Source: Truepera sp. bin119 (lineage in GTDB: Bacteria > Deinococcota > Deinococci > Deinococcales > Trueperaceae). From it: a stretch of 45,867 nucleotides of DNA. Location of the stretch: NCBI GenBank assembly GCA_002239005.1, contig MPNL01000028.1, positions 1-45,867 of the forward strand. Reading direction: 5' to 3'. Positions 1-15,626 of the stretch are shown one piece after another (positions within the stretch are counted from its first letter, which is position 1; every line of letters begins with the position of its first letter). The notes below the pieces were generated by a model. That model was not told the origin of the DNA. It made no database searches and worked only from the letters and a program-made list of their open reading frames with translations. The position numbers and the translations under genes are program-made.

Positions 1-1
1 A

Positions 2-18
2 CGGACTCTTCGGGTCCG
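2..18. repeat. Palindrome copy A (GACTCTTCGGGTC)
   Basis: The core GACTC-TTC-GGGTC can fold into a 5-bp stem (with one G.T pair) and a 3-base loop. The 17 bases are identical to those at 27589-27605 and are nearly the reverse complement of 28058-28074. It sits at one broken edge of the transposase fragment 18-174. Confidence 0.6.
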
Positions 19-174
19 CCACCGGTAGTGGTTTGCTGTCGATCAGATGGATCCGGTCATCCCCCAGCACCGATAGAGCGAGCTTGGCCACTAGCCTCTC
101 GGCATTCCGCAAGATCCGGTGATAGCGGCTGTAGTGGGGCAGCTTGGGGACCCGAAGCAAGAACCTCCAAAAAC
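18..174 (-). pseudogene. Transposase fragment (DDE type, IS982/IS4-like)
   Basis: Read on the minus strand, about 50 codons give a continuous transposase-like segment: WRFLLRVPKLPHYSRYHRI, then a helical stretch and HLIDSKPLPVADPK. The pattern 'LPxYSR...' followed some 35 residues later by 'IDSxPLP' is that of DDE transposases of the IS982/IS4 type, the Asp of IDS being the first catalytic acid. There is no start, no second or third catalytic acid and no stop. The segment is cut on both sides by the same short palindrome (2-18 and 175-189), so it is a fragment rather than a gene. The family name is uncertain. Confidence 0.5.
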
Positions 175-175
175 A

Positions 176-246
176 GACTCTACGGGTCTACGGGCCCAAC
201 GGAGCCACAAAGGCGGACAAGGACGGCTTCGTTGGAGCTACGGGTC
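176..246. repeat. Hairpin repeat, copy B
   Basis: The left arm is 176-206, a loop of 18 bases is 207-224, and a right arm starts at 225. CCAACGGAGCC (196-206) pairs with GGCTTCGTTGG (225-235) through 11 bp with one G.T pair. The outermost 13 bases, GACTCTACGGGTC, are the dispersed palindrome. The 31-base left arm recurs inverted at 814-844 with 29 of 31 matches. The loop with its flanks recurs directly at 794-824. Beyond 235 the right arm has decayed or been rearranged to AGCTACGGGTC. An intact element would be a hairpin of about 80 bases with 31-bp arms. Confidence 0.6.
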
Positions 247-247
247 T

Positions 248-355
248 TGTCCGTCTGGAACAGATCTTCTAGCTTATACTGGTGTCGGGGATGGGGATTC
301 ATAGAAACAACCATTCCCCTTTCTTTGCCTGCAGATCAAGTGGCAAACGACGTAA
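248..355 (+). repeat. ~105-bp direct repeat, copy 1 (partner at 28071-28178)
   Basis: Starting at GTCCGTCTGGAACAG and ending near GGCAAACGACGTAA, this stretch matches 28071-28178 in the same order with small gaps. Both copies share GTCCGTCTGGAACAG, TCTTCTAGC, CGGGGATGG, CCTTCCC-like pyrimidine runs and CAAACGACGTAA. No convincing protein is encoded. It looks like the non-coding end of an insertion sequence or of the repeat element beside it. From here to the small ORF at 572 nothing else is recognisable. Confidence 0.55.
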
Positions 356-522
356 TTCCCAATCTAAAGGTGGAAAACTCCAGTTCGCAATGGCCCGGTT
401 TTCGGGGGAAGGGTCAGAAGCCCTGCTTATTCACCCTGGCTCGGGGGATCAATCCCTCACCTTGGATGGGTTTTTGTATTCGCAGGTAGCCCGACTCGCG
501 GGAAACCTGGAGTACTTGCAAG

Positions 523-551
523 TTCCATTATAGCCACAAATGTTCTATAAT
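523..551 (+). promoter_or_regulatory. Likely -10 box ahead of small ORF
   Basis: A perfect TATAAT lies at 546-551. The hexamer 17 bases upstream (TTCCAT, 523-528) is a poor -35. The box sits 20 bases before a good ribosome binding site and the ATG at 572, which is the main reason to believe it. Confidence 0.4.
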
Positions 552-571
552 CGGCTTAGTCGGGAGGGAAA

Positions 572-724
572 ATGAACAAGACAACGGTGAGCACCAAACG
601 CCCCCGCCCCTCCAAGCACGACGAACCGATCAAAATCGACGCCTCACCTGAGGCGGTCGCACGCTCGCTCTTTAATGGGAAGCCGAAGAAAGAGTGGCGT
701 TATCTAAAAGAGGGTGGGAAGTAG
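572..724 (+). CDS. Small basic protein, 50 aa, unknown function
   Basis: The ATG at 572 is preceded by GGGAGGGA (562-569) at normal spacing and opens a 50-codon frame ending TAG. The product begins MNKTTVSTKRPRPSKHDEP, continues with an acidic helix (SPEAVARSLF) and ends in a Lys/Trp-rich tail (NGKPKKEWRYLKEGGK). The charge pattern, the strong Shine-Dalgarno sequence and the TATAAT upstream argue for a real gene. I do not recognise the family. It lies between two inverted copies of a hairpin repeat (176-206 and 814-844), inside a zone made of transposase fragments, so it may be cargo of a small mobile unit. A small DNA- or RNA-binding protein is possible but unproven. Confidence 0.5.
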   Translation: MNKTTVSTKRPRPSKHDEPIKIDASPEAVARSLFNGKPKKEWRYLKEGGK

Positions 725-793
725 GTTTCGTGGTAAGGTGGCTCTAGATTTGAAACGCCGGGGACGACGACACCAACCCAGCCAGGCAAAGGT

Positions 794-846
794 CCACAAA
801 GACCGACAAGGGCGGCTTCGTTGGGCCTGTAGACCCGTAGAGTCCG
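794..846. repeat. Hairpin repeat, copy C (inverted partner of copy B)
   Basis: This contains the loop region (CCACAAAG...) and an intact right arm ending in GACCCGTAGAGTC. The arm 814-844 is the reverse complement of 176-206 with two mismatches. The left arm is missing. The element abuts the truncated end of the IS5-type transposase fragment at 847. Confidence 0.6.
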
Positions 847-1005
847 TCCTTGGTCAGTCTTGCGGGGACGTCCCCTTCGGTTGGGCGACGGAAACAGCGA
901 TGCTATGGTCGCCCACTCTGCATCGGTAAGGTCACTTTCATAGCGCACCGCTTCACGCTTATACTGCTCGCGAGCGGTCTGATTCCAAGGCATGTGGCCC
1001 TCCAA
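847..1005 (-). pseudogene. IS5-family transposase, N-terminal fragment
   Basis: The minus-strand reading (best start ATG at 993) gives MPWNQTAREQYKREAVRY followed by SDLTDAEWATIASLFP and GRPRKTD. This is the characteristic N-terminal DUF4096 region of IS5/IS427-group transposases, in which 'L(T/S)DAEW' precedes a 'GRPRxxD' motif. The homology stops right after GRPRKTD, where hairpin repeat copy C begins. The frame runs on to 700 only as unrelated sequence, and no DDE catalytic domain follows. It is a truncated remnant. The TTG at 1005 could also be a start, but that makes no functional difference. Confidence 0.75.
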
Positions 1006-1334
1006 GTCTGGTCTGTCGAACTACTTGGAATACCACGCCTTGGGCGGCCACTCGATATTATGGAACAGATTCCAAGAACGCCTGCTAACGACACATCGTC
1101 GATTCCACCCTGTTCACAGCGCTCGTATCGGAATGGATCTCGCTCACACTTCAGCTTACGACTGAAGTTCACGGTTCGCTCTAAGGGTCCCCTAAAGCTC
1201 CCCCGCTCCGGTAGGAGTCTGCCGGACGGTCACGGGGGCGGTTTCGGGTTACCCTTGCCAAGGGCAGGTTCCCGCTTCGGCGTGCACTGCCCCTCTCATG
1301 CAATCAGAGGAGGTCTGCTACCCGGGCTGCCAAT
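1006..1334. other. Intergenic, no gene recognised; leader of the lipid operon
   Basis: No coding sequence is convincing here. A very good Shine-Dalgarno sequence (GAGGAGGT, about 1306-1314) lies 20 bases before the ATG of the reductase gene, further than is usual, and no in-frame start codon lies between. Promoter elements for the operon are not obvious. Confidence 0.4.
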
Positions 1335-3026
1335 ATGAGCGAGATTGCCGAGTTCTTAAGGGGTAAGACCCTCCTGATCACCGGTGCCACTGGTTTCCTC
1401 GCCAAGGGGATGGTGGAGAAGATCCTGCGCGAGGTTCCAGACATTGGGCGGATCTATCTACTCATCCGTTCCAAGGGCCAGGTGAATGGGGTCGCACAGG
1501 CTCCGGAGTACCGGCTGGAGCGAGAGGTTCTTGGCTCGAGCGTCTTCAGCCGGCTGCGTGAACTGCACGGCCCAGAGTTCCTCGGATTTGCGAAGAGGCG
1601 AGTCGTAGCGCTGGAGGGCGACCTCACCCAAGATCACCTCGGCCTCGGCCCGAAGGACTACCTACGATTAACCAGCGAGGTCCAGGTAATCATCAACAGC
1701 GCGGCCACAGTGATCTTTGACGAGCAACTCGACAACGCCATCGAACTCAACAGTCTGGGCCCTCGGCGCCTCCTGGAAATGGCGTGGGCTTGTCGGCAAA
1801 GGCCCCTATTCTTGCATGTGTCAACTGCCTACGTGAGTGGCCAACTCCGTAAGGCGTTCGCGGAGAAACCCCTCCCTGTCGACCGGACGATTAAACAGCT
1901 GATGGGCCGGGGGGACAATGAGCCCTTCGATCCGGAGAGGGCCATCCGGGAGATGCTGAAGGTTTGCCATGAACTCTACGAGGCGTCCCGTCAACCGCAA
2001 CGCCTCAAGGCGTTCCGTCGAATGCTCGCTAGGAGGAAAGGCAACGAGCAGTCTAGGGGGGCAAAAGATAGGCAGATCGAGAATCTGCGGCTCCGCTGGA
2101 TCAGGAATCGGCTAGTGCGCGAGGGGATGCGCCGCGCCCGACTCATGGGCTGGCACGACAGCTACACGCTGACCAAAGCCCTAGGGGAACAGCTGATAGC
2201 CAGGAACTGTGGTGACCTAGCCACGGTCATCATCCGCCCCTCGATCATCGAGAGTAGCCTCTCTGAACCGGAGCCCGGTTGGCTCGACGGTCTCAAGGTG
2301 GCTGACGGCATGATTGCACCGTTTAGTAAGGGGCGGCTGCCAGACTTCCCGGGCAACCCCAGGACCATCATCGACCTGATCCCGGTCGACTTCGTCATCA
2401 ACGCCACGTTGGCAGCGCTACCGCGGGCTGCACGCGAGGGCGGGCTCCGGGTCTACCACGTCGCCAGCGGGGTGCAGAACCCACTCCGGCTCAAGACCTT
2501 GGTCGACCTGTGCCACAACTACTTCAAGCGCTTCCCGATGCGGGGGAGGCAGGGCGAACCCCTGCGCACCGGGCGCTGGACCTACCCGTCGCCGTGGCTA
2601 TTCCGGCGTTGGGTCTGGCTCCGTTACCAGTTCCCTCTCGGTCGGCTCCAGTGGCTTTTGGAATGCTCCCCTAGGCTTTTCGGCGCCATCCACCGCCTGA
2701 AGCGCAGGGTGGCACTCCTGCGAGCGATCTATGACAGGGCGGTCTACTATTCGCGGATCTACAGCACCTATACCCGTTTCAACTTCGAATTCCTGACCGA
2801 CAACACTACAGAGCTATTCGGGTCGCTCTCCCCCGAGGATCGAGAGGCGTTCAATTTCAACGTCCAGAGGATCCAGTGGCGTGAGTACATCCAGGAGGTG
2901 CACATTCCGGGCCTCAAACGTCATGTGCTATTCACTGGAAGCGGTAGCCCCACCGCTGACCGGGGATCACGGCCGATGCCGGAGGATGCCACCCCGAGCA
3001 AGAATGTGTCGACAGGAAGAGGCTAA
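1335..3026 (+). CDS. Fatty acyl-CoA reductase (alcohol-forming, FAR type)
   Basis: The 563-aa product reduces a long-chain acyl-CoA (or acyl-ACP) to the fatty alcohol with NADPH. The N-terminus (residues ~8-30) has the extended-SDR nucleotide fold GATGFLAKGMVEKIL. LHVSTAYVSG follows near 155-165 and the catalytic YTLTK is at 277-281, as in animal FAR1 and marine bacterial FARs. The C-terminal ~170 residues match the FAR 'sterile' domain region (DFLTDN-type segment: NFEFLTDNTTELFGSL). Positively charged helices near 215-260 are longer than in many homologues. The stop overlaps the start of the next gene (TAATG), so translation is coupled. In this context the alcohol is most likely the alkyl donor for the alkyl-DHAP synthase two genes on. 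Wax-ester synthesis is an alternative, but no wax synthase is present here. Confidence 0.88.
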   Translation: MSEIAEFLRGKTLLITGATGFLAKGMVEKILREVPDIGRIYLLIRSKGQVNGVAQAPEYRLEREVLGSSVFSRLRELHGPEFLGFAKRRVVALEGDLTQDHLGLGPKDYLRLTSEVQVIINSAATVIFDEQLDNAIELNSLGPRRLLEMAWACRQRPLFLHVSTAYVSGQLRKAFAEKPLPVDRTIKQLMGRGDNEPFDPERAIREMLKVCHELYEASRQPQRLKAFRRMLARRKGNEQSRGAKDRQIENLRLRWIRNRLVREGMRRARLMGWHDSYTLTKALGEQLIARNCGDLATVIIRPSIIESSLSEPEPGWLDGLKVADGMIAPFSKGRLPDFPGNPRTIIDLIPVDFVINATLAALPRAAREGGLRVYHVASGVQNPLRLKTLVDLCHNYFKRFPMRGRQGEPLRTGRWTYPSPWLFRRWVWLRYQFPLGRLQWLLECSPRLFGAIHRLKRRVALLRAIYDRAVYYSRIYSTYTRFNFEFLTDNTTELFGSLSPEDREAFNFNVQRIQWREYIQEVHIPGLKRHVLFTGSGSPTADRGSRPMPEDATPSKNVSTGRG

Positions 3027-4975
3027 TGGCAGTCGAGGAAATCCCCGTCCAGGGGCCGCCGCCACAGGTTGTGAGGCCCCTGGGAAGCTACGACGAGGCC
3101 GCGCAGGCGATCATCGAGGCGCTGAGCCGGGCCCGCTGTTTTCAGGGTTGGGACCCCACAGAACTCGTCTGGCCGGTAGCCGGCACGACGGGAGGTGAGG
3201 TCGATCTTGCGGGGCTTGAGAGGCGCCTCGAACTAGTCTCCGCCATCGACCGGGGCATGCCAGCGCTCCGCAATCGGCGCCTGAAAGAGGCCTATGGGCA
3301 TTTCAGTCAAGCAGAGGCTGCCTATCACGAGGGGACGCGGATCTACCTCCGGCTCAAGAAGAGGTTTGTCGACCTTGGGCTCGGGGACGAGGAGGGGTTC
3401 CTGCACCTCTATCAGTCGCTCCTAGTCGACACACTAGCGAAGGTAAAGCCGAGCGCCCCGGCCCCCGGTGAGGGCGTTCTTCACGACCTCGGGTTGGCTC
3501 GGCCACCCTTGGAGCACGCGCACCGGGCGGCCCAAGCGCTGCCAACTACCGCCCTCGACGACCCCCGCTGGTCGGAGTGCTTCACCATTGTGTCTGGGGG
3601 GATCGAGACCGAGGTGTCGCTCCTCGAGGGCCTCTCCGAGGTGGTGCAACGCACCCTCGATCAACTCGCGGCCGGCGATCTGCTGGCGACGCACTACAAC
3701 GTCTACAGCAACTTTGCTTGGTTCGGGGGTTCGGTGTGGAAGGTAATCGTCGAGGCGGATCTGCTCCGACGGCGCCTCGCTGGCTCCAACGATGTAGCGG
3801 AAGCGATCCTGGCAGCCCTCGCCACGGACATTCGGCTCGGCGAGGAGATGTTGCTTAAGTTCTTCCGGGCGCACCTAGAGGAGCCAGCTCAGATCAGGCC
3901 GGTAGCCTTCTGGTACGGTCAGCCCTACAGCTACCTGACGCGCGATCTGATCGACACTGTAGTGAGGGTGGTCGACCGTTGCGAGCAACTGGCTGGCAAG
4001 GTGGCCAGATCCAGGCTGTCGAGCCCCAAGCTCCCACCACTCCTGACCGGCCAGACCGAGGGGTGTTTTCTGGAGTACCCGGACTCGGGTCGACAGGGAA
4101 CTCTCAGCGGCTGGCAACGAAGGGTAAGTATGGCCCGCTGGCTGCTGTCCTCATGGAAGATAGGCGGGCTCAAGAAGAGTCTAGCCCGCGCCAAGATCGG
4201 GCGGAGTGCCCGGCTCGAATTGGCGTGGCGACAGTGGCTCGACTGGGCCGACACCACGCTGCGACACTTCAGGATTGAGGTGAAGACGCGGATCGACCCG
4301 GCCTTCTTTGGGATCGCCCAGGACCTCGACCTCGCCTCGGGCAAGCACAAGGTTGTGTTCTTACCAACCCACCAGAGCCTGCTCGATCACCCGGTAATGT
4401 ACCGCGTGCTCAGTTCGCTCGAGCTGAGAGAGGCCATGGGTTGGGCGGGTGTCCAACCCTGCGTGATGCTCGCCCGGACCAATCTAGCCAGGGCTGGTGT
4501 GAAGTTCGGCCCCTGGTCGATGACGATGTTTGGCGCTCCCTCACAGGCCTTTGACAGGCTACTCGAGGAGGTCGACGGCTACGTGACGCGGGATCTTGCC
4601 AGCGAGGCTGGCTCGCCGCTCAAGCGGGTGGTGGCGATGCTCGCCGAGAGGCCCGCAGTGATCTATCCGATGGCAACCACTGCTGCCTTCGGGACACAAC
4701 TGTTTCCGCTGCAGCATCTGCTATTCGCGGGGCTGCCACAGGACGTGATTATCATCCCGATCGCGTTGCGGGGCATCCACTCGCTGTGGCCGAAGATACC
4801 CAAGGGCAACCTGAATCTTAACCCCGGAGTCGTTGAGGCCGTGGTATCACCACCGATGCTGGGCGAGACGACCCTGATGCCCAAGAGGCGCTCCCTCCGA
4901 TTCCAACTGGAGACGGCCTCGCTTGTGCAGGCTGTCCACATCACCAACCTACTGAACCCGGAGGTGAGGGTGTGA
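3026..4975 (+). CDS. PlsB/GNPAT-type glycerolipid sn-1 acyltransferase
   Basis: The 649-aa product carries the acyltransferase HX4D motif HQSLLD at residues 449-454, preceded by VVFLPT. Later blocks follow the order of glycerol-3-phosphate and DHAP acyltransferases: a glycine/phenylalanine-rich segment (GVKFGPWSMTMFG), AVIYPMATT, and IIIPIALRG near the end. At about 650 residues it is closer in length to animal GNPAT (DHAP acyltransferase) than to PlsB (about 800). The first ~340 residues are helical and not recognised. The gene overlaps the reductase by one base and the alkyl-DHAP synthase by four (GTGA). That position makes DHAP the likely acceptor, giving 1-acyl-DHAP, the substrate of the next enzyme. 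Glycerol-3-phosphate acylation cannot be excluded. Confidence 0.82.
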   Translation: MAVEEIPVQGPPPQVVRPLGSYDEAAQAIIEALSRARCFQGWDPTELVWPVAGTTGGEVDLAGLERRLELVSAIDRGMPALRNRRLKEAYGHFSQAEAAYHEGTRIYLRLKKRFVDLGLGDEEGFLHLYQSLLVDTLAKVKPSAPAPGEGVLHDLGLARPPLEHAHRAAQALPTTALDDPRWSECFTIVSGGIETEVSLLEGLSEVVQRTLDQLAAGDLLATHYNVYSNFAWFGGSVWKVIVEADLLRRRLAGSNDVAEAILAALATDIRLGEEMLLKFFRAHLEEPAQIRPVAFWYGQPYSYLTRDLIDTVVRVVDRCEQLAGKVARSRLSSPKLPPLLTGQTEGCFLEYPDSGRQGTLSGWQRRVSMARWLLSSWKIGGLKKSLARAKIGRSARLELAWRQWLDWADTTLRHFRIEVKTRIDPAFFGIAQDLDLASGKHKVVFLPTHQSLLDHPVMYRVLSSLELREAMGWAGVQPCVMLARTNLARAGVKFGPWSMTMFGAPSQAFDRLLEEVDGYVTRDLASEAGSPLKRVVAMLAERPAVIYPMATTAAFGTQLFPLQHLLFAGLPQDVIIIPIALRGIHSLWPKIPKGNLNLNPGVVEAVVSPPMLGETTLMPKRRSLRFQLETASLVQAVHITNLLNPEVRV

Positions 4976-6750
4976 CCCAGCCTGTCCATGACCGGGCTAC
5001 GGGCGTTAACTACGATCCCTCCGGAGGCGAGCGCCACGCGCACAAATGGGGGTTCACCGACACCTACTTCGAGTTCGATAGTCCCTCCACCGTCCGCCTA
5101 GCGGGCAATCGTTACCCCCTAGCGGGCCACACCCTACCCGCCTTCATCCCATTCGTGGAGGCGATGCTCGGTATCCCGCTCCGGGCCGAGGACCGCCAAG
5201 AGGAGAGGGTTGATCCTGCGGTCCCTGACACGAGCGCCACTGGGGACCTCCTCGAGGCCTTAGAAGGAGCGCTCGATGCTGATCAGGTGTCGCTGGATGA
5301 CCGAGAACGCCTGATCCACAGCCACGGACAACTGAGCGTAGACGAGGTCTACCGAATCCTTTACCGTGACGCGCTCGAGCGCGTTGTCGACGTGGTGGTC
5401 TACCCGCAGAGCGAAGAGGACGTACGGACCCTGGTCGAGCTAGCGGACCGCTTCGATATCGTATTAATCCCTTACGGCGGGGGCACCAACGTTAGCGGCG
5501 CCCTGGCGATCCCCTCCCAAGAGCGGCGGACGGTGGTCTCGGTCGACATGCAGCGCATGAGCCGTATCCTGTGGATCGATGAGGTGAACCGGCAAGCCTG
5601 TGTGGAGGCGGGGATCTCCGGCAAGGAGTTGGAGATGGCGCTGGGAACGAAGGGCTATACCTCGGGTCACGACCCAGACAGTGTGGAGCTGTCGACCCTG
5701 GGTGGCTGGATCGCAACCAACGCCAGCGGGATGAAGAAGAATCGCTACGGCAACATCGAGGACATCGTCCTCGAGGCCACCCTGGTGACGCCAGCGGGCG
5801 TGGTCGAGACCCTTCACATCACCCCTCGGAATTCGACCGGCATCCAGCCGCGCGCACTTTTATTCGGCAGCGAGGGTAACTTCGGAATCGTAACCAAGGC
5901 CGTGATCAAGATCCACCCTCGACCCGAAGTGCAGAGCTACGGCTCGCTGGTCTTCCCCTCCTTCGAAAAGGGGGTTGAGTTCCTTCATGCGCTCCGCAAA
6001 ACCGGGGTGCTGCCAGCCAGCATCCGACTTGTCAACAACAATGAGTTCCGCTTCGGCCAAGCTCTGCAGGGGGAACCTACCTTCTGGGGATCTTTGCGGA
6101 GGAGGCTGCAGAGGTTTGTGCTGTTCCAACTGAAGAATTTCGATCCAAAGAGCCTGGCCGCCTGTACCATCGTGATGGAGGGGACAGCCGCAGAGGTCGC
6201 CCAGCAGCGAAGGACGATCTTCCCGCTCGCCCGAAGTTACGGTGGTATCAGTGGAGGGTCGAGCGGCGGCAAGCGCGGTTACATGCTAACCTTCAGCATC
6301 GCCTACATCCGCGATTTCTTCAACCAGTACCAGATCCTGGGCGAGACCTTCGAGACCTCGGTGCCCTGGAGCCGGATCCACGACGTGACCCGGTCGGTAA
6401 CGGAAGAGTTGGAGAGGCAAACGAAGGTCCACGGGGTCGCAGGTCGACCCTACCTCTCATACCGCCTCACTCAGACCTACCACACAGGCGTCTGCATCTA
6501 TTTCACAATGGGCTTCAGCGGCGTCGGCCTCGACCGTGCCGACGAGGTCTACCATAAGATCGAACAGTGCCTGAGGCAGGTTATCCTCGATCAGGGCGGT
6601 TCGCTCTCACATCACCACGGGGTTGGCAAGATCCGCCAGCAGTTCCTGCCCCAGATTCAGACGGAGGGCAGCATCAAGGTGTTACAGGAGCTAAAGAAGG
6701 CGGTCGATCCCAAGAACATCTTCGGCGCTCGAAACGGCGTCTTCGATTGA
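4972..6750 (+). CDS. Alkyl-dihydroxyacetonephosphate synthase (AGPS type, FAD)
   Basis: The 592-aa flavoprotein is predicted to exchange the acyl chain of 1-acyl-DHAP for a fatty alcohol, forming the ether bond. The FAD-binding (PP-loop) domain shows YGGGTNVSGAL at about 168-178. HDPDSVELSTLGGWIATNAS then SGMKKNRYGNIEDIV from about residue 233 is the AGPS signature, distinguishing it from glycolate or lactate oxidases. The active-site histidine cluster SHHHGVGK is at 546-553 and the C-terminus DPKNIFGARNGVF is typical of the FAD-oxidase fold. The start is GTG at 4972, overlapping the preceding stop, with GGAGGTGAGGG just upstream. The length agrees with eukaryotic AGPS without its peroxisomal presequence. 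This is the key call that defines the operon as ether-lipid synthesis. Confidence 0.9.
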   Translation: MTQPVHDRATGVNYDPSGGERHAHKWGFTDTYFEFDSPSTVRLAGNRYPLAGHTLPAFIPFVEAMLGIPLRAEDRQEERVDPAVPDTSATGDLLEALEGALDADQVSLDDRERLIHSHGQLSVDEVYRILYRDALERVVDVVVYPQSEEDVRTLVELADRFDIVLIPYGGGTNVSGALAIPSQERRTVVSVDMQRMSRILWIDEVNRQACVEAGISGKELEMALGTKGYTSGHDPDSVELSTLGGWIATNASGMKKNRYGNIEDIVLEATLVTPAGVVETLHITPRNSTGIQPRALLFGSEGNFGIVTKAVIKIHPRPEVQSYGSLVFPSFEKGVEFLHALRKTGVLPASIRLVNNNEFRFGQALQGEPTFWGSLRRRLQRFVLFQLKNFDPKSLAACTIVMEGTAAEVAQQRRTIFPLARSYGGISGGSSGGKRGYMLTFSIAYIRDFFNQYQILGETFETSVPWSRIHDVTRSVTEELERQTKVHGVAGRPYLSYRLTQTYHTGVCIYFTMGFSGVGLDRADEVYHKIEQCLRQVILDQGGSLSHHHGVGKIRQQFLPQIQTEGSIKVLQELKKAVDPKNIFGARNGVFD

Positions 6751-6790
6751 GTCAGCTGCCCAGATTCACCGTGTCACCAGTAGGGTAAAC

Positions 6791-7597
6791 GTGCTCGCCG
6801 GAAGAACCGCAATCGTCACGGGCGCATCGTCCGGACTAGGCGCCGCACTAGCTCTCAAGTTCGCCCGCGCCGGGGCCCGATTGGCTCTTTTCGGCCGCCG
6901 CAAGGACCAGCTTGAGGAGACCGCTCGAAGCTGCGAAGCGGCCGGAGCCGAGACCCTTGTCGTGCGCGGTGATGTCACCCGGCCCGGCGACTGCGAGGCG
7001 CTAGTGGCCCGCACCGTGGAGCGCCACGGCACCCTCGACTATCTCGTCGCCAACGCCGGCATGAGCATGTGGGCGCGGTTCGACGAGATTAGGGATCCCA
7101 CCCTGTTTCGGAACCTCATGGAGATCAACTATCTAGGCGTGGTCCACTGCCTGTTGCCCGCGCTGCCACACCTGAAGAGGAGTCGAGGCATGTTGGTGGC
7201 AATCTCCTCGATCCAGGGTGAGATCGGAGTGCCTCTGCATAGCGGCTACGTCGCCTCGAAGCACGCCCTGCAGGGGCTAGTGAAGACCCTGCGGATAGAG
7301 CTGCAGGGCAGCGGGGTGGACATCCTCACCGTACTCCCACACTGGATCCGTGGGACCGGCCTGCGCGCGAACGCCTCCGGCCCCGACGGTCGACCCCTAA
7401 GCCGGACGGCGCAGCGACACAGCAGTGAATCGATCTCGCTCGAGGCCTGCAGCGAGGCTGTCTTGAGAGCGGTCGCCCAGAGGCGCAAGGAACTGGTCAT
7501 CCCCTGGAAGTTGAGGCTCCTACCTTGGCTGGAACTGATCGATCCGAGGCTGGTTGCCTTTTTCGTCGGCCGGGCGGTGCGCGAGCAGCGCAACTAG
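6791..7597 (+). CDS. Short-chain dehydrogenase, probable acyl/alkyl-DHAP reductase
   Basis: The 268-aa classical SDR has GASSGLGAALA at the dinucleotide site, NAGMSMW, a catalytic Ser in AISSIQGE, and YVASK with Tyr153 and Lys157. The C-terminal part (PWKLRLLPWLELIDPRLVAFFVGRAV) is hydrophobic and amphipathic, as in membrane-bound DHRS7-type SDRs. The start is GTG at 6791, after a 40-base gap from the synthase on the same strand. In animals the third step of ether-lipid synthesis, NADPH reduction of alkyl-DHAP to alkyl-glycerol-3-phosphate, is done by an SDR (PexRAP/DHRS7B). This gene completes the same pathway by position. The SDR assignment is firm; the substrate is inferred from context. 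Confidence 0.8.
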   Translation: MLAGRTAIVTGASSGLGAALALKFARAGARLALFGRRKDQLEETARSCEAAGAETLVVRGDVTRPGDCEALVARTVERHGTLDYLVANAGMSMWARFDEIRDPTLFRNLMEINYLGVVHCLLPALPHLKRSRGMLVAISSIQGEIGVPLHSGYVASKHALQGLVKTLRIELQGSGVDILTVLPHWIRGTGLRANASGPDGRPLSRTAQRHSSESISLEACSEAVLRAVAQRRKELVIPWKLRLLPWLELIDPRLVAFFVGRAVREQRN

Positions 7598-8239
7598 GCC
7601 CGGGTGACAGCACCCGGAGGCCGGGGCCGGTTCTCCTGCCCCGACCGTTGTGGTGGTATATCAGGCACTCGGGCAGTGGGTAGCGTAAGTAGACCCAGTG
7701 AGACGTGCTGTCATGGGGCCTCGAACCCTCTGAGCCGGTCTCACCTGCTCCATCATAAGTGAGGCCGGGGCCGCACTATCACACGCTGCATCATCCCTTC
7801 CTGGGCGGGGGCGGTCCCACCCTAGCAAAGAGGACACATGCTGCGCTATCTCCCCTCTCTGGCCGACAGGTATCGATGCCCTTCGTGCAGTGGCTGGCGT
7901 CTCTCGTGGCGTGGAACTGGAGCCATGAACATAAGGCGCGCAACTGTAACGACGCTGCGACCAAGGTTGGGAGCCCATTCAGACCGGATCCCGATACCGC
8001 TCAGGGCCCCTTCGACTGCTAGCGGGAAACGCCCATTGGCGGGGGAGTGAGATCCGAGCCAGTTGCTGGTGTGGAACGTCGGCTGCGTGGCGGTGACGGA
8101 GATCGGCACCCTGGCTGCGGCGGTGCTGCCCTTGCTCAGCCTCGGGAGCAGCGAACTCCGGCGCCGGACCTACCGATCCCGACTCCGTGCTACCATGGCC
8201 TGATGTCAGAGGGAGGCGGCAAGCGGTGCACCACCAGAG
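7598..8239. other. Intergenic, 640 bases; possible coding remnant near its end
   Basis: Just after the reductase, CCGGGTG-ACAG-CACCCGG (about 7599-7616) forms a GC-rich hairpin without a T-run, perhaps a weak terminator. Most of the rest has no recognisable gene. From about 8063 to 8203 one frame reads as a hydrophobic segment (LVWNVGCVAVTEIGTLAAAV) followed by an Arg-rich tail ending RATMA and a stop. That resembles the end of a membrane protein but has no proper start. Confidence 0.3.
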
Positions 8240-9283
8240 ATGTTAATTAAGAAGCAACCCTTCGAGCCCTGTCCGACGGGCACCTACGCAGAACTTAAAG
8301 GCTGGATCCGGGCACAGGGTCTGCTTGAGAAGCAGCCTGGCTTCCTGAATCGCAGGATCCTGGTTACGCTGGGCCTGCTAGCAGCCAGTCTGACTCTCCT
8401 GTTCCTCTCCGACAGCCTCTGGTTCCAACTTCCGAACGCGGCACTCATGGCCTTCACCTTCGGCCAGATCGGCTTCATCGTCCACGATACCGGTCATCGG
8501 CAGGCCTACCGAAGCCAAGCCAGGAACAACTTGATCGGCGTACTGCACGCGAATCTGTTGCTCGGCATGAGTTTCGGCTGGTGGGTAGGCAAACACAACC
8601 GCCACCACGCCAACCCCAATCAGCACGATCTCGACCCCGACATTGGCATGCCGATCTTTGCGTTTACCGAGGAGGACGCGCTCGCGAAGCGCGGCTTTTA
8701 CCGGTTCATGGTCCGCTATCAAGCCCTCTTCCTCTTCCCGCTCCTGTTTCTTGAGGCCTGGAGCCTGCGAATCGGGAGCATCTACTTCCTGCTCCGCCAC
8801 AGGTCACGCTACCGGGCACTCGAGATAGGCCTCATGGCGCTGAACTTCGTCTGGGTCGCAGGCGTGGCGGTCACGACGCTCGGGGTGGTGAAGGGGCTTA
8901 TCTTCCTCGCCGTCCAACAGGCGCTGTTCGGCTTCTATATGGCCTCGGTGTTCGCACCGAACCACAAGGGCATGCCGGTGTTGGACAAGGGTGTGGAGAT
9001 CGACTTCCTCCGGCTGCAGGTCCTCACCGCACGCAACATCCACCCCCACCCGCTGACCGACTACTGGTACGGGGGCCTCAACTACCAGATCGAGCACCAC
9101 CTGTTCCCAACCCTGTCCCGGAACCGACTCCGGGCGGCCCACGAGATTGTCAAGCCGTTCTGCCACAAGCATGGCATCCCGTATCAGGAGTCGAGCATGC
9201 TCGGCTCCTACGCTGAGATCTTTGGCCATTTTCACAGGGTCAGTGCGCCCTTGAGGAGGGGGTTGCGGAGGGCAGACCGGTAG
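8240..9283 (+). CDS. Membrane fatty acyl/lipid desaturase (three His boxes)
   Basis: The 347-aa di-iron desaturase of the FA_desaturase family has all three histidine boxes: HDTGH at 82-86, HNRHH at 119-123, and QIEHH at 283-287. The glutamine at the third box is typical of front-end (delta-5/6-type) desaturases. No cytochrome b5 domain is fused, so it would need a separate electron donor. Hydrophobic pairs surround residues 40-75 and 160-240, giving the usual four membrane helices. It follows the ether-lipid genes on the same strand, separated by 640 bases, so it probably has its own promoter. It may desaturate chains of the ether lipids or of ordinary phospholipids. It lacks the pattern of the CarF/TMEM189 plasmanyl desaturases, so vinyl-ether (plasmalogen) formation is not indicated. 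Confidence 0.88.
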   Translation: MLIKKQPFEPCPTGTYAELKGWIRAQGLLEKQPGFLNRRILVTLGLLAASLTLLFLSDSLWFQLPNAALMAFTFGQIGFIVHDTGHRQAYRSQARNNLIGVLHANLLLGMSFGWWVGKHNRHHANPNQHDLDPDIGMPIFAFTEEDALAKRGFYRFMVRYQALFLFPLLFLEAWSLRIGSIYFLLRHRSRYRALEIGLMALNFVWVAGVAVTTLGVVKGLIFLAVQQALFGFYMASVFAPNHKGMPVLDKGVEIDFLRLQVLTARNIHPHPLTDYWYGGLNYQIEHHLFPTLSRNRLRAAHEIVKPFCHKHGIPYQESSMLGSYAEIFGHFHRVSAPLRRGLRRADR

Positions 9284-9320
9284 GGCTCGCGACGGCAAGG
9301 CAGGTATGTTGTCCCACGAC

Positions 9321-9349
9321 TTGTTTTTGCACCGCTGATGGCGTATAGT
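9321..9349 (+). promoter_or_regulatory. Promoter of the cold-shock gene
   Basis: TTGTTT (9321-9326) and TATAGT (9344-9349) are separated by exactly 17 bases. Transcription would start near 9356, leaving a leader of about 98 bases before the cold-shock start codon. Confidence 0.5.
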
Positions 9350-9355
9350 TAGTAC

Positions 9356-9453
9356 CGTTCCGAAAAACCTCACTAGGCTTTTTCGTGACGCGGGCAGTTG
9401 CCCGGTAATGCAGTTGGCTGGACCCGGATCCGGCGGTAAGGAAACAGGTAAAT
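9356..9453 (+). promoter_or_regulatory. Structured 5' leader of cold-shock mRNA
   Basis: Three potential stems follow one another: CGAAAAACCT/AGGCTTTTTCG (9361-9385, one bulged G), CGGGCA-GT-TGCCCG (9391-9404) and CCGGATCCGG (9424-9433). A purine-rich AAGGAAA (9438-9444) then sits before the ATG at 9454. Long, foldable leaders are known to control cold-shock mRNAs by temperature-dependent refolding. A similar role here is inference. Confidence 0.4.
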
Positions 9454-9684
9454 ATGATTGCAGGAAAAGTGAAGTGGTTTAGCGACGAAAAAGGCTACGG
9501 CTTCATTGAGCAGGCCGACGGCAACCCGGATGTATTTGTACACTTCTCTGCTATCCAGGGCCAAGGGTTCCGCAGCCTCAATGAGGGCGATGAGGTCGAG
9601 TTCGAAGTCGAACGCGGTCAGAAAGGTTTACAAGCGACCAACGTGGTGGTGACCAGCGCAGCGCCGCAGAGCCCCCGCTACTGA
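9454..9684 (+). CDS. csp: Cold-shock domain protein (CspA family)
   Basis: The 76-aa single cold-shock domain begins [15 protein letters not shown], which includes RNP1 (KGYGFI), and continues with RNP2 (VFVHFSAI). The aromatic surface residues that stack on single-stranded nucleic acid (Trp8, Phe/Tyr of RNP1, Phe and His of RNP2) are all present. Such proteins bind single-stranded RNA and DNA and melt secondary structure in the cytoplasm. The C-terminus after NVVVTSA is a short Pro/Ser tail. The gene is monocistronic, with its own promoter and structured leader upstream and a terminator downstream. Confidence 0.95.
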
Positions 9685-9722
9685 CGAACGGCTCCCACAA
9701 AACAAAATAGTCGATGTTGCCA

Positions 9723-9748
9723 GACCGCTTGGCTCAAGCTGGGCGGTC
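9723..9748. terminator. Terminator between convergent genes
   Basis: GACCGCTTGGCT and AGCTGGGCGGTC form a stem with a GC-rich base and several G.U pairs, followed by GTTTCGT. It lies between the cold-shock gene and the oppositely oriented gene ending at 9773. Confidence 0.5.
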
Positions 9749-9772
9749 GTTTCGTACTGGGCTTCCTCAGGT

Positions 9773-10270
9773 TTAGTTGCCAAGCCGATTCGTGACCTCG
9801 TCGAGCCGCTTCATCCAGACCGAGGCGCTCCTGCGGAGCGCCTCCAATTCGCTCTGAAGCTGGGACGTCAGCGTCCGGGCTGCGGCGCTATCTCCACGAC
9901 CTAGGGCCCCCTGCTGTTCGGTGAACATCTTGTGGTAGCCATAGAGCCTGCCCCGAATCTCCTCCAACTCCCGTTCGACCGTCCCCTTAAGCTCCCGCCA
10001 GGAGCGGTCGTGCGCGCCGACACGGGCAAAGATCTCCTCCAGCCTAGCGACTCCCTCCTCGAAGCGGACAAAAACTGTATCGAACCTAGCATTCAACAAC
10101 CCCTCCACGGCCTCGCTGATGATCTCGGAGACGCCGTAGCAGATGCTTGAAAGCCCCTCCAGATAGGGGGCGGAGAGGGCCCTGGAGCCCCTGCGAAACC
10201 CTCTAATGACCCGCCACGACAGCCACCAGATGAAGGTGCCAACCAGGATTAGGATCAGGAATCTTACCAT
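9773..10270 (-). CDS. Membrane-anchored coiled-coil protein, unknown function
   Basis: The 165-aa product opens with one strongly hydrophobic helix (VRFLILILVGTFIWWLSW, residues 2-19). A basic patch (RVIRGFRRGSR) follows, so the remainder is probably cytoplasmic. From about residue 60 to the end the sequence is rich in Glu, Arg, Leu and Ala with heptad spacing (EEGVARLEEIF, ELKGTVERELEEIRGRL, LQSELEALRRS), suggesting a long helical or coiled-coil domain. I do not recognise a named family. An IS5-type element is inserted only 15 bases upstream of the ATG, which has removed the native promoter. The gene may now be silent or driven from the element. Confidence 0.6.
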   Translation of the reverse strand: MVRFLILILVGTFIWWLSWRVIRGFRRGSRALSAPYLEGLSSICYGVSEIISEAVEGLLNARFDTVFVRFEEGVARLEEIFARVGAHDRSWRELKGTVERELEEIRGRLYGYHKMFTEQQGALGRGDSAAARTLTSQLQSELEALRRSASVWMKRLDEVTNRLGN

Positions 10271-10640
10271 TGCATCCGCATTATGAGCCTATCCTAAAAA
10301 CCAGTGGGATGTTGCAGGGCGTTGCGGGACGGGAAGCTGGGATAGCGTCTAGACTGTGGCAATGAGCAGAAAGACCCCAAGCCGGGCCGTCCGAAGCGGG
10401 CTGGCCCTGCCACCAAGACCGATCCCACCACCGGCGCGTTCCAGGTCTCCGAAGAGCTCTGGGAAGTGCTGGAGCCGTTGATCCCCAAGCATGTGAACAC
10501 CCATCGGTTCGGCGGCGGCCGACCCCGGGTTCCCGACCGCACCTGCGCCACTGGCATCTTCTAGGTGCTGCGCACCGGCTGCCAGTGGAAAGCGTTGGAC
10601 GCCACGGGAATTTGTTCCGGGTCCACCGCCCACCTGCGCT

Positions 10641-11131
10641 TTCAGGAACGGAATCAGTAGTTAGGGGCTAGAAAAGCTGCTGAGCTAATCTCTGGAGGAC
10701 GTGGCCCGGTGGCTGCTCAGTCGGGAGCTTCTCGAGCACTTTCCCCAAGGTCTTTAGCCTCGAAGCGCCGAACAGGATCCTCCACGGCGAAGTCCCAGAT
10801 CGGGGAAAAGTCGCGCGACTTTTCCCCGATCCCCAAGTTCTGAGGTTCGATTGCTAAGCTGCAACCCCCACCCCGAGGCGGTGAGGCCGAGGTAGAGAGT
10901 CACGGCATTGGCATATCCGTCGATCTCAGCTGCCCGGACCATCGCCTGCTCGAACGTCTCCCCGACCCGGAGTCGGGCGCGGGGCAGGCCGACCACCGGG
11001 GGCCGATCTGTATCCGGCAGACAGGCGACCACGTGAGCGAATGATCGAGCAGGGTGACAAAGAGGTTGTTGGCTGGCTGAACAGGACCATATCTATCTCC
11101 CTAGCCCCTAACTACTGATTCCGTTCAGGAA
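10641..11131. mobile_element. 475-bp miniature element with 23-bp TIRs and 8-bp TSD
   Basis: The insert runs from 10649 to 11123. Its ends are perfect 23-bp inverted repeats starting CGGAATCAGTAGTTAGG (10649-10671 and 11101-11123). TTCAGGAA is duplicated directly outside both ends (10641-10648 and 11124-11131). Removing the insert plus one copy of the duplication restores the reading order of the interrupted IS5 transposase. Inside there is no transposase. There is a 34-base perfect palindrome and a fragment of an unidentified protein on the minus strand (about 10835-11090). An 8-bp duplication fits several families (IS6, IS66, ISL3, IS256), so the mobilising transposase is unknown. Confidence 0.88.
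10798..10831. repeat. 34-bp perfect palindrome
   Basis: GATCGGGGAAAAGTCGC is followed immediately by its exact reverse complement with no spacer. It lies inside the 475-bp miniature element. It could form a cruciform or act as a binding site for a dimeric protein. Confidence 0.8.
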
Positions 11132-11808
11132 TGGGGTGCCGCTGGGGTGTTCCTGGAACTGTGGCGAGTGGGACTGGAGCGCTATGACGAACTGAAGGGT
11201 CTGGACTGGAGTTGGCTGAGCATGGGCGGCGCCATGACCAAATCGCCCCTGGGCGGAGGGAAAAACCGGCGCCAGCCCCACGGACCGAGGCAAAGGCGGG
11301 GTCAAGCGCAGCCTGTTGACCGAAGCCCAGGGCGTTCCGGTGGGTCTGGTGGTGGACGGGGCCAACCGCCACGACATGAAACTGGTGCGGGCCACGGTGG
11401 ACAGCCTGCCCGTGCCGCGACCGGCACCCAGTTCGGACCAAGACCAAGGGCTGTGCCTGGACAAGGGCTTACGACTTTGAGGAGGTGCGCCGCATCGTGG
11501 ACGAGTTCGGCTTCACCACCCACATCCGCAGTCGGGGCAAGGAGGCGAAGGCCATCAAAAGAGAGGCTGGGTTCAAAGTCAGGCGCTGGGTGGTGGAACG
11601 CACGCACAGTTGGCTGAACCGTTTCCGGCGCATCCCGGTGCGCTGGGATAAATCCCCCGAAAACTACATCGCCTTTCTGCTTTTTGCCTGCGCCCTCAGA
11701 ACCGCTGGGTTATTAGGATAGGCTCTATGTCCCGACCGAACCGCTCACAGATGTTGGGAGCGGGCTCGACGCTGATCGGCGTATTCTGCCACGAGTTGCC
11801 GAATGGTA

Positions 11809-11863
11809 TTGACAACCTAGGTTCAAACCCCGCATCTTGCAAAACCTATTGAGTATACACTCA
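11809..11863 (+). promoter_or_regulatory. Promoter/operator ahead of TetR remnant
   Basis: A perfect TTGACA lies at 11809-11814, with only weak -10 candidates after it. At 11850-11863 the 14-base dyad TGAGT-ATAC-ACTCA has the size and form of TetR-family operators, especially those of lipid-related regulators. It lies about 60 bases before the HTH-coding region and suggests autoregulation before the gene decayed. Confidence 0.45.
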
Positions 11864-11921
11864 GTGAAATCCATCGGATCCCACCTCGAAGCTGGAGTGT
11901 CACATCAGGGGACCTAGCCAC

Positions 11922-12463
11922 AACGAAGACGAGATCCTCACTCAGCGCCAGCAGCGGGCGCAGGCCCGGGTTGAGCAGATCCAGAGGGTCGCGCTTGAAC
12001 TCTTCGCCTGCCAGGGGTTCGCCGCCACCTCGACCCGGCAGATCGCCGAGAGAGCGGGAACCGCCGAAGGCCTCATCTTCCACTACTTCACCAACTAAGG
12101 TGGATCTACTAAAGGCTCTCGCCACCCAGAGACATACCCTGGCTGGCGAGATGAATGTGATCCTTGAGGAGGCCCAGGACACCCCCATTCGCGAACTGCT
12201 CCGAAGGACCGCCGAAGGCTGGCTTCGCCTCATGCGGCAGGAAGATCATCTCGTCTCTATAGCTCTTAGCGGAATCACTGACCCATCCCGAACTGCAACA
12301 GGCATTCAGCGAAATCACCGAAATGCAGATCGGGAAGCTCACGGCCTATCTACAGACGCGGGTCGAGGCAGGGGAACTCCGGGAGGATCTCCCCGTGCGG
12401 GCCAGCGCCATGATGCTAACCTCACCTCCCTCCGGGATCAGCTCCTGCGGGTCCCCCGGATGA
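11922..12463 (+). pseudogene. TetR-family regulator, frameshifted
   Basis: The N-terminal helix-turn-helix is complete: QIQRVALELFACQGFAATST, RQIAERAGTAEGLIFHYFTN. Normal members continue 'K-x-D/E-L-L', and an extra T at about 12098 creates TAA here while KVDLLKALATQRHTLAGEM continues in the next frame. A second shift near 12277 is needed to reach LTHPELQQAFSEITEMQ and RVEAGELREDLPVRASAMM, which is typical of the ligand-binding domain. No in-frame ATG or GTG with a ribosome site is evident at the 5' end. The 3' end overlaps the convergent methyltransferase. It was probably the repressor of a neighbouring lipid or efflux gene. Confidence 0.75.
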
Positions 12464-13388
12464 CGATGAGCGGGTCGGTGAACACCTCCATGACCTCTTT
12501 GACCCGGGAGGGCTCCTCCTGAAGGTGGGCCATACGAGCACGCTTGAGGTCCAAAAGCTCCTCGAACTCCGCGTCACCAAAGCCAGCAGCGGCGAGTTCC
12601 TCCCCATGCTCCCTCCGCCACAACAGGAGGCGCTCAAGGTTCTGTCGGTGCATTGAGAGGGCGTAGTCCGCGCCCGCCTCGACCGGAATACGATCATCAC
12701 CGGGCGCTGCGAGCATCAGGTGACCGTTGACCTGGATATCCCCTAAGCCCTCATCACGGAAGCCCCACACCAGATCCTGATTGACGATACTGTGATCTAC
12801 CTGCAGTAGCTGCGGACGAACGGTCCGCCGCCACACCCGCCACAGCCGATGGTTCAACTCGTCGATGCGGTGGTCACCGGGCAGCGGGTAACGACCATGG
12901 TAGTGAGGCAATCCATCGGTATGACAAAAGCAGACCACAGCCGAGACCACGCCCCCCTTCCGGACGACCCGGATCTGCTCGCGCAACCCCGCCGCAGGAT
13001 CACTCATGATACATAGCACCGTGTGGCTGGTCACCATGTCGAACGACTCGTCTGCGAACGGAAGCTGGTAGGCGTCCCCGCACACCACCTCGACACGATC
13101 ATCGAGATTTTCCCTCTGGAGTTCCCTACGAGCCTGGGCAATCAACTCCTCATCCGCGTCCAGCCCGACAATCTGGACTCTTTCTAGTGTGCGGGCCAGG
13201 AGCCGGGTCAGGAACCCGGAGCCGCACCCTACGTCGAGGATGCGAGTCCCAGGGCGGGCGCCCAGGTATTCAGTGAGGAGGGGAATAAACTCGGGCCGAT
13301 ACATGTAGCGCCGACCGACCTCTAACCGCTCGCCCTCCCAGTGGCCGACCCCCGGCGCTGGCATCTCAGAGGCTCCGTCTTGGGTCAT
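12438..13388 (-). CDS. Class I SAM-dependent methyltransferase
   Basis: The 316-aa product has motif I ILDVGCGSGFL at about 50-60, the acidic end of strand 2 (IVGLDADEEL), GDAYQLPFADESFDMV and a post-motif VVRKGGVVSAV. This is the Methyltransf_11/25 type, in which D of GLDAD contacts the ribose of SAM. The C-terminal ~130 residues (DGLPHYHGRYPL, MHRQNLERLLLWRREHGEEL) are helical and would set the substrate, which I cannot name. The start has GGGAGGGAG five bases upstream. It faces the TetR remnant and overlaps its last ~25 bases. Confidence 0.82.
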   Translation of the reverse strand: MTQDGASEMPAPGVGHWEGERLEVGRRYMYRPEFIPLLTEYLGARPGTRILDVGCGSGFLTRLLARTLERVQIVGLDADEELIAQARRELQRENLDDRVEVVCGDAYQLPFADESFDMVTSHTVLCIMSDPAAGLREQIRVVRKGGVVSAVVCFCHTDGLPHYHGRYPLPGDHRIDELNHRLWRVWRRTVRPQLLQVDHSIVNQDLVWGFRDEGLGDIQVNGHLMLAAPGDDRIPVEAGADYALSMHRQNLERLLLWRREHGEELAAAGFGDAEFEELLDLKRARMAHLQEEPSRVKEVMEVFTDPLIVIRGTRRS

Positions 13389-13577
13389 TCGCTCCCTCCC
13401 CCTTCATCACAGGCTGCCCTAATCGCCGCCGGGTCCCAGGCGGATTCGGGATATGACCTGTCTGAAATCCACCCTCGTTCTCACGATAGCCGACCTTGGC
13501 CATCCCAAATGAGGCAGGGCCGTGAGGGAACCCGGATTGGGGTTGAGGACCTATCACCGCCACCAACCCCCTTCCAA

Positions 13578-13778
13578 CTAGCAGCCGGAATAGCGGCGTA
13601 CCCTGTAGTACCCGCTCTCCACCAACAGCCTCAAAGCGGAACGGCTGGCCACGCAGGCGGAATCGGTACCGTACACGGCAATCTGTTCACTTGGTCTCGG
13701 CGTGGCGGTTTTGACTTCAAAGACTAAAGTGTTGAAGAGGGCCCGGAATGTGCTTAGGGTGGCATGTCCAGCCACCAA
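13578..13778 (-). pseudogene. Rhodanese-like domain fragment
   Basis: The minus-strand frame reads ATPRPSEQIAVYGTDSACV, then ASRSALRLLVESGYYRVRRYSG. This fits the second half of a rhodanese domain, usually 'IVVYCxxxxCxxSxxAAxxLxxxGYxxVxxYxGG'. The position normally held by Cys after VY is Gly here. The frame stops right after YSGC, before the conserved 'G-x-x-x-W'. No N-terminal half is seen upstream. It is a decayed piece; sulfurtransferase activity is not expected. Confidence 0.45.
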
Positions 13779-13977
13779 GTATTATTACCCGCTCGAGGCA
13801 ATGAGAAATTTTACGCTTTGTACCGGAGTGAACTCCCATAGACTAAGCTATTGGCTTCAGTTCTGCTCGTACGAGCCAAGCGACTTTCGTCGCAGGGTCC
13901 CGGAACGAATCCTAGCATTCGGCGGGACCCACTTTCTTTCCTTGTCGAAGAGGGACGTACGGTGCAGTGGATGCCTT

Positions 13978-14186
13978 AACAGCCCTATGCTCAAGGACTT
14001 GATTCACCAAGGCGTTTACGAGACCATCGGTTCGGATCGGAGTCGAGCTACTTCCCGCGAGGCTTCGTACTAGGCCACCTCCAGGATCAACTCCGCATCT
14101 GCTACCAACTCAACCCCCCTGAGGAGGACATCGGTGCCATCTTCGGCGGCAACGCTGCCCAGCTCCTCGGGCCTGAGGCCGAATGA
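13978..14186 (+). pseudogene. Amidohydrolase (TIM barrel) C-terminal remnant
   Basis: In one frame LKDLIHQGVYETIGSD is followed, after a one-base shift, by GSESSYFPRGFVLGHLQDQL, then a helix and IFGGNAAQLLGPEAE before TGA. The order 'FGSDSSYFPRGF' ... 'I-x-GGNAxRLL' is typical of the end of amidohydrolase-2 proteins (the Asp of GSD binds metal). The catalytic N-terminal barrel is missing or unrecognisable in 13780-13977. It is a truncated, frameshifted relic. Confidence 0.55.
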
Positions 14187-14264
14187 GTGAGGGGGAGCGC
14201 TTCCACAAAGTTTACCGAGACACCGTCTTGCACCGCTCCAGCAGAGGGCATAGGGATCCCCCCG

Positions 14265-14840
14265 TTATTCCCTCTTCACGGGCACAACTCCGGTCTCAGT
14301 GGCAAGGTGAGTCACGGCGATGTCCCGCACGGCGGTGGGAAGCCTCGGCACCACCAGTGCTCGGACCACAAGGCCGACCCGCGGTACCGCCGGGTTCAAG
14401 AGTGGGAGAAGCCTGTCGTAGTAGCCGAACCCGTATCCGAGCCGTCCTCCCAGACCGTCGAAGGCAAGGCCGGGAACCAGGGCCAGTTCGATGACTCCGG
14501 CATCGACTTTTGGCTCGCTTTCAAGCGGTTGCAGGAAGCCGAAGGGGTGGTGCTCAAGGCAACTCCTCTCGTGACGGTGGATGCTGAGGTGGCGCCCCGG
14601 CCCTGGCCATGTGCGAGTGACGAAGAAGGCCTTGCCAGAGTCCGCTTCGAGAGGGGCAGGATCCGGCTCTGAGTCGAACGCTAGGTAGGTGAGGACATGC
14701 CGCGCCTCGCAGTAGGGTCCCCAGGTTTGAAGGCCAGCCACGATGCCCGCAACGGCCGCTGGGCTCGTCGCCTCGCCCCGAGCGCGCCTAGCCCAGCGGC
14801 GCCAGGTCTCTTTGGAGGCGTCGGTGGAGGGAAGGTCCAC
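14265..14840 (-). CDS. 5-formyltetrahydrofolate cyclo-ligase
   Basis: The 191-aa cytoplasmic enzyme converts 5-formyl-THF to 5,10-methenyl-THF using ATP, returning a storage folate to the one-carbon pool. The diagnostic region is PGLAFDGLGGRLGYGFG then YYDRLLP (about residues 123-148), the conserved nucleotide/folate loop of the MTHFS/YgfA family. The N-terminal KETWRRWARRAR corresponds to the usual 'K-x-x-x-R-x-x-x-R' helix that binds ATP phosphate. Length is normal for the family. The gene stands alone on the minus strand, surrounded by decayed sequence, and appears intact. Confidence 0.88.
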   Translation of the reverse strand: MDLPSTDASKETWRRWARRARGEATSPAAVAGIVAGLQTWGPYCEARHVLTYLAFDSEPDPAPLEADSGKAFFVTRTWPGPGRHLSIHRHERSCLEHHPFGFLQPLESEPKVDAGVIELALVPGLAFDGLGGRLGYGFGYYDRLLPLLNPAVPRVGLVVRALVVPRLPTAVRDIAVTHLATETGVVPVKRE

Positions 14841-15356
14841 ATCCCAAAGCTTACATGGAGCGAAGCACAGGGAGGCAAAGCAGGACCTGTGCTGCCCCCA
14901 GAAGATTTGATGGGGGAGCAGTCGTTTGCATGGATGGGGCTGAGGCGACTAGGAGCGGTTAGCGCGATTGGTTAAAGAGTTTACGAGCGGGTGCCGGAGT
15001 TGAGCAGGCCCGGAAGTGCCCGCCAACCCCCGTACCAGTTTGTAAACGCCTGTAAACGGCGATGGCTCATCAAGATGAGCAACTTGCCTAAGACTGGTGT
15101 GCTTTTGGAAGCTCTAGCTATCTCATCGACACCACCTCTAGGGTCATCGTGCCGTCGGCTAGTGGCGCATGTAGCCCAGGTCAGAGTGTTGGAACCCTAG
15201 GGATCCGCAAAGAGTCCGGCTCGGGAAGCTCATGAGTACGAGCAGTACAGTATCGGGCAACTTCCTAAACTCCTCTAGTCCCGAGCACCACAGTCCTCAC
15301 AGACACCGATCAAAAATCGTAGACACACATCATTACTCTCTTGCCACCATGTTAAG
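14841..15356. other. Intergenic, about 500 bases, nothing recognised
   Basis: Between the divergently placed cyclo-ligase and the next small gene I see no convincing ORF, RNA or repeat. Short AT-rich stretches near 14970 and 15305-15345 could hold promoters, but no pair of hexamers stands out. Confidence 0.3.
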
Positions 15357-15371
15357 GTGGATCTCGATACA

Positions 15372-15626
15372 GTGAGCAAGGACGTCATTGAGGCTTTTCT
15401 CAACGAGATGCGCAGGCTCCACAAGCGTGAGGTTGGGGCGGTGAACCTGCCAGAGGGGACTCGTGAGTACGTAGAGGAGCGGCTCCACGAGGGTGACATT
15501 GAGACGGTGATGTTCATGCTCAAACTCGGCTACCTCATGGGGCTGCAGACGGGCTTCGCCGCCGCACAGGCTGGGGAGCGGCAGGTACCCCCTGCCTCGT
15601 CGACGCGGGGGCCGCTCCAGGCCTGA
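15372..15626 (+). CDS. Small conserved-looking protein, unknown function
   Basis: The best start is GTG at 15372, 12-13 bases after AAGGTGGATC (15353-15362), which matches the 16S anti-Shine-Dalgarno pairing. A longer GTG start at 15357 overlaps that site. The ~84-aa product has an amphipathic helix (KDVIEAFLNEMRRLHKREV), a short acidic middle (PEGTREYVEERLHEGDIET) and a Met/Leu/Gly-rich helix (VMFMLKLGYLMGLQTGF), then a Pro/Ser tail. Codon use and composition look genuine. I do not recognise the family. The hydrophobic helix is too broken by Gly and Gln for a confident membrane call. Confidence 0.5.
   Translation: MSKDVIEAFLNEMRRLHKREVGAVNLPEGTREYVEERLHEGDIETVMFMLKLGYLMGLQTGFAAAQAGERQVPPASSTRGPLQA

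Follow-up and report, generated by a model that had tools for sequence, protein, structure and literature searches.

The window, a 45,867-nucleotide stretch of DNA from a 3.2 Mb Trueperaceae genome (Deinococcota; genome G000), carries a four-gene operon that encodes, in order, a fatty acyl-CoA reductase (FAR), a divergent stand-alone acyltransferase (AT), an alkyl-DHAP synthase (AGPS) and an SDR oxidoreductase. The operon is real and coherent, and the unusual acyltransferase family is its most interesting part. The main reading, given a probability of about 0.7, is that the predicted activities of the four proteins make 1-O-alkyl glycerolipid precursors by the dihydroxyacetone phosphate (DHAP) route, with AT as the DHAP acyltransferase.

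The four genes and their surroundings

By open reading frame analysis of the window, the four genes are arranged in tandem on the + strand between positions 1335 and 7597. FAR (1335–3026, 563 residues) overlaps AT (3026–4975, 649 residues) by one base in the junction TAATG. AT and AGPS (4972–6750, 592 residues, GTG start) share the four bases GTGA, and a 40-base gap separates AGPS from SDR (6791–7597, 268 residues, GTG start). These overlaps and the gap agree with those given in the original prediction. Purine-rich stretches resembling ribosome-binding sites precede FAR, AT and AGPS. The prediction had extended the operon to position 9283, thereby taking in a fatty-acid desaturase gene (8240–9283, + strand; PF00487, 5e-40) 643 bases downstream. 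The desaturase was considered as a fifth operon member and rejected. It is missing from the corresponding region of a second Trueperaceae genus (genome G002) and from all 80 AGPS loci named in a scan of GTDB genomes, and is therefore treated as a neighbour outside the conserved unit.

A misbinned contig is an unlikely explanation for the operon, as GC and GC3 are uniform and the same operon lies on a 205-kb contig in G002. In addition, one gene near the operon is closest to another Trueperaceae genome, which also argues against misbinning. Elsewhere in the window, positions 1–1334 have a GC content of 0.56 versus 0.62 and contain no convincing gene or Rfam RNA, and an Rfam scan of positions 1–16000 gave no match. 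At positions 37376–41160, genes for hydantoinase/oxoprolinase A and B overlap by 4 bases, and a gene for a family 5 solute-binding protein comes next.

The protein encoded from position 4972 is assigned as AGPS on very strong sequence grounds, and its enzymatic exchange would take place on DHAP. A PDB search aligned residues 25–588 with guinea-pig AGPS (PDB accession number 4bby) at 4.7e-150, starting at residue 95 of the mammalian protein. The motifs SGMKKNRYGNIEDI and SHHHGVGK are both present. The active-site comparison proposed with the original prediction was performed by alignment: H233, D236, R352, R447, Y510 and H547–H549 are identical to mammalian H300, D303, R419, R515, Y578 and the His triad H615–H617, residues of catalytic importance in AGPS structures. 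All are invariant in five bacterial relatives, and mammalian S527 is replaced by T459. The alignments place the changes of two mutated PDB chains, 4bca and 4bc7, at Y578 and R419. Together, the full-length match and the retained active site uphold the earlier identification of the protein. The alternative of a D-lactate/glycolate-type flavin oxidoreductase can be considered virtually nil; the protein does match the glcD model, at 168 bits compared with a cut-off of 568, whereas its PDB scores are 504 bits for 4bby, 300 bits for 2uuu and 86 bits for the best oxidoreductase other than AGPS. The glycolate-oxidase reading was rejected on these scores.

FAR is securely assigned by sequence as a putative fatty acyl-CoA reductase, as had been claimed. 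It combines NAD_binding_4 (PF07993, 6e-65) and Sterile (PF03015, 5e-15) domains, matches the fatty acyl-CoA reductase 7eoz in the PDB at 1.2e-95, and contains the motifs TGATGFLAKG and YTLTK (YxxxK, residues 277–281). No further domain (acyl-CoA synthetase, ACP or LPLAT) was found in its 563 residues. The SDR scores above the cut-off of NF004825/PRK06181 (284 bits versus 215), a family without an assigned function, and its PDB matches are generic SDRs only. The comparison with PexRAP made in the original prediction is partly supported, by gene context, the protein being a generic SDR. An SDR gene follows AGPS in about 48 of the 80 AGPS loci, across many phyla, and the AGPS-trailing SDRs occupy one side of a branch with support of 97 in the SDR tree. 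From gene position only, the protein is a candidate 1-alkyl-DHAP reductase.

A divergent acyltransferase family

No curated Pfam or NCBIfam family matched AT above its cut-off; PF01553 scored 13.1 bits where 23 is required. Across the family, 9 of 16 members match PF01553 at E values up to 1, the best being 0.008. A PDB profile search with the family returned chance hits only, and a scan of IMG/VR with AT gave no match. The AF2 model of AT (pLDDT 79, pTM 0.83) yielded as its best meaningful Foldseek matches Thermotoga PlsC (5kym; probability 1.00, TM by target 0.66) and squash GPAT (1k30; probability 1.00, TM by target 0.37, E 0.011). Profile comparison by hhalign with the canonical LPLATs fused to FAR in other operons gave an E value of 8.7e-5 and a probability of 60, pairing VIYPMATTAAF of AT with LIFFPEGTRS in block III, and IIIPIALRG...WPK with IVPAHITG...LPK in block IV.

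The HX4D motif of block I is located at H449–D454 (PTHQSLLD). Its His is kept in all 16 family members, and the catalytic Asp is replaced by Glu in six of them. Block III reads YPMATT where FPEGTR is expected. The block III Glu and Arg, which bind glycerol phosphate according to mutagenesis of PlsB, are missing in all 16 members, the EGTR being replaced by M/T-[AG]TT. Because the fold is predicted and these two residues are always missing, AT is, on its model, a protein with the LPLAT fold but without a motif that defines the GNPAT/PlsB class. The earlier label of a GNPAT/PlsB-like acyltransferase therefore stands with respect to the LPLAT fold and HX4D, but not with respect to the block III EGTR or a curated family match. 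At even odds, AT is the founder of a new family with the LPLAT fold that is devoted to making ether lipids in bacteria. Such a family would bind its acceptor without EGTR and tolerate Glu in place of the catalytic Asp, and in Trueperaceae and Latescibacterota it would either have taken over DHAP acylation from the canonical LPLAT or perform a different, undescribed acylation.

Distribution and history of the operon

The gene-order comparison suggested with the original prediction showed that the operon recurs. In genome G002 all four genes recur in this order with 66–75% identity, and 14 loci labelled Latescibacterota or Gemmatimonadota, or unlabelled, share this FAR, AT, AGPS, SDR order (arrangement A). 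In arrangement B, found in Trueperaceae, Phycisphaeraceae, Hydrogenedentota and Ectothiorhodospiraceae-like MAGs, FAR is fused to a canonical LPLAT and followed by AGPS and usually SDR. Arrangement C, mainly from Marinimicrobia, comprises a separate canonical LPLAT, AGPS and usually SDR. In arrangement D, AGPS precedes FAR, as in the MXAN_1676–1674 type of myxobacteria and others; the FAR is a FAR-LPLAT fusion in the one member checked. A competing proposal is that the product of FAR and AT is something else, such as wax esters or free alcohols, and that only chance or regulation has put them in one operon with AGPS and SDR. Bacterial FAR enzymes do serve wax ester synthesis too; against this, the gene set is found in two phyla, several further phyla have it with another LPLAT, and the substrate of AGPS is a fatty alcohol, which makes the proposal very improbable.

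In the window's own phylum, two of 111 genomes have AT; in the Latescibacterota group, 46 of 64 do. In the latter, 41 genomes have both AT and AGPS, five AT only, one AGPS only and 17 neither, a co-occurrence with a Fisher p of 3e-10 (n = 64 genomes, uncorrected for relatedness). One of the five AT-only cases lies at a contig edge, and the single AGPS-only case is a fragment. AGPS homologues have been reported in 67 of 92 Black Sea Latescibacterota MAGs (PMC11868695). FAR is present in 45 of the 64 genomes. One large Latescibacterota clade carries it inside an ElbD-like protein of ~1400 residues; the one such protein scanned has FAR, AMP-binding and LPLAT domains as well as an ACP-like stretch recognized by eye; the sequence of a second is similar. 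AT and AGPS-SDR lie at separate loci in those genomes of the clade that were looked at. Many Latescibacterota genomes have such ElbD-like FAR/AMP-binding/LPLAT proteins of about 1400 residues, as at L156:3097–7317 and L157:3215–7411, both on the − strand.

Several other gene combinations were observed near AGPS. Downstream of AGPS, a Propionicimonas MAG encodes a FAR that is joined to a HAD phosphatase-like domain (L092:10157–12895, + strand). The cyanobacterium Dulcicalothrix has an AMP-binding/ACP/LPLAT protein near its AGPS gene (L090:1596–7714, − strand). A Planctomycetota locus (L079:9800–17605) contains, close to AGPS, a 2601-residue open reading frame with weak FAR and SDR similarity, perhaps a polyketide-synthase-like protein.

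The distribution bears on the step that AT catalyses. The pathway may be correctly identified while AT carries out another acylation, for example at sn-2 of alkyl-G3P or on a different acceptor, acyl-DHAP then being supplied by PlsC or an unseen enzyme. In addition to the replacement of EGTR throughout the family, this is favoured by the coexistence of AT with ElbD-like proteins that have a canonical LPLAT of their own, by AT loci that lie apart from AGPS and, as the main reason for doubting the exact step, by three genomes (G165, G166 and G169) that have AT and an ElbD-like protein without a clear AGPS. Nonetheless, AT sits between FAR and AGPS, precisely where the FAR-fused canonical LPLAT is found in the sister operons of other Trueperaceae and of soda-lake and hypersaline-type MAGs. 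Moreover, G000 encodes only one other LPLAT, a single PlsC-sized PF01553 protein, which leaves AT as the obvious source of acyl-DHAP. Another acylation by AT is thus considered rather unlikely, and the assignment of AT as the DHAP acyltransferase is preferred.

The window and G002 proteins are sisters in the FAR, AT, AGPS and SDR trees. The FAR tree places arrangement A in one clade apart from arrangement B with support of 100/100, and the AGPS tree joins the window/G002 pair to arrangement B with support of only 82. Since the FARs of A and B fall in distinct clades although both arrangements occur within Trueperaceae, the sequences suggest separate acquisitions in this family. The window's operon is related to the Latescibacterota-like set, with horizontal transfer as its probable origin, and its stand-alone AT apparently replaces the canonical LPLAT that other Trueperaceae fuse to FAR.

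Predicted pathway and comparison with known systems

In the predicted pathway, FAR would reduce a long-chain acyl-CoA to a fatty alcohol, and AT, judging from its position, would acylate DHAP to 1-acyl-DHAP. The FAD enzyme AGPS would then put the fatty alcohol in place of the acyl chain, yielding 1-alkyl-DHAP, which SDR, again judging from position, would reduce to 1-alkyl-glycerol-3-phosphate. The housekeeping PlsC and phospholipid enzymes would complete an alkyl (plasmanyl) ether lipid rather than a plasmalogen. No step uses O2, in agreement with the O2-independent synthesis originally proposed. CarF/PEDS1 (PF10520) has no match in G000 or G002; as a positive control, it was found in 8 of 9 AGPS-bearing genomes of the myxobacterial type. 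Alkyl rather than vinyl ethers are predicted for this reason, and 1-O-alkyl glycerolipids are the most likely product. Homologues do not prove lipids, since Pontiella has ElbD homologues and yet no ether lipids were detected in it (PMC11868695). A search of the open-licence literature found no report linking Trueperaceae to ether lipids.

The DHAP-type ether-lipid pathway emerges as a modular bacterial unit that occurs in many phyla with interchangeable acyltransferases, which bears on the origin of the animal pathway. Alkyl-ether lipids are predicted in Deinococcota and Latescibacterota, and the AT family provides a concrete exception to the textbook acyltransferase motif.

The original prediction regarded a coupled set of all four steps as not commonly described. 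This view is not sustained, as the Myxococcus xanthus operon MXAN_1676-1675-1674, which encodes AGPS, a fusion of FAR1-like and GNPAT-like domains and a reductase/dehydrogenase-like protein, had already been described (PMC9131029), and the FAR-LPLAT version is present in several phyla. Disruption of MXAN_1676 lowered ether lipids only slightly (PMC9131029). The two operons bring together the same kinds of domains; in M. xanthus, however, AGPS comes first, FAR and the acyltransferase are fused and the final gene carries the annotation NAD-dependent epimerase/dehydratase, whereas the window has a separate, divergent AT gene. Genomes with the M. xanthus-type arrangement mostly have CarF, unlike that of the window. 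The FAR-LPLAT fusion/AGPS/SDR operons of other Trueperaceae, Phycisphaeraceae and Ectothiorhodospiraceae (L076–L078, L081–L085, L087 and L091) have the same order, and their usual SDR is of the same family, but the fused PF01553 domain retains EGTR and their FARs, 33–39% identical to that of the window, form a separate clade. ElbD likewise includes a FAR domain and functions in ether-lipid synthesis, but unites FAR, ACS, ACP and LPLAT in one protein, whereas the window's FAR has none of the other three. The predicted reactions are those of the animal FAR1, GNPAT, AGPS and PexRAP, and AGPS is homologous over its full catalytic length; the mammalian N-terminal part is unmatched, and the sequence of AT does not identify it as GNPAT. 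Operons of this kind are thus already known from myxobacteria, and what is new is the stand-alone divergent AT family, shared mainly with uncultured Latescibacterota.
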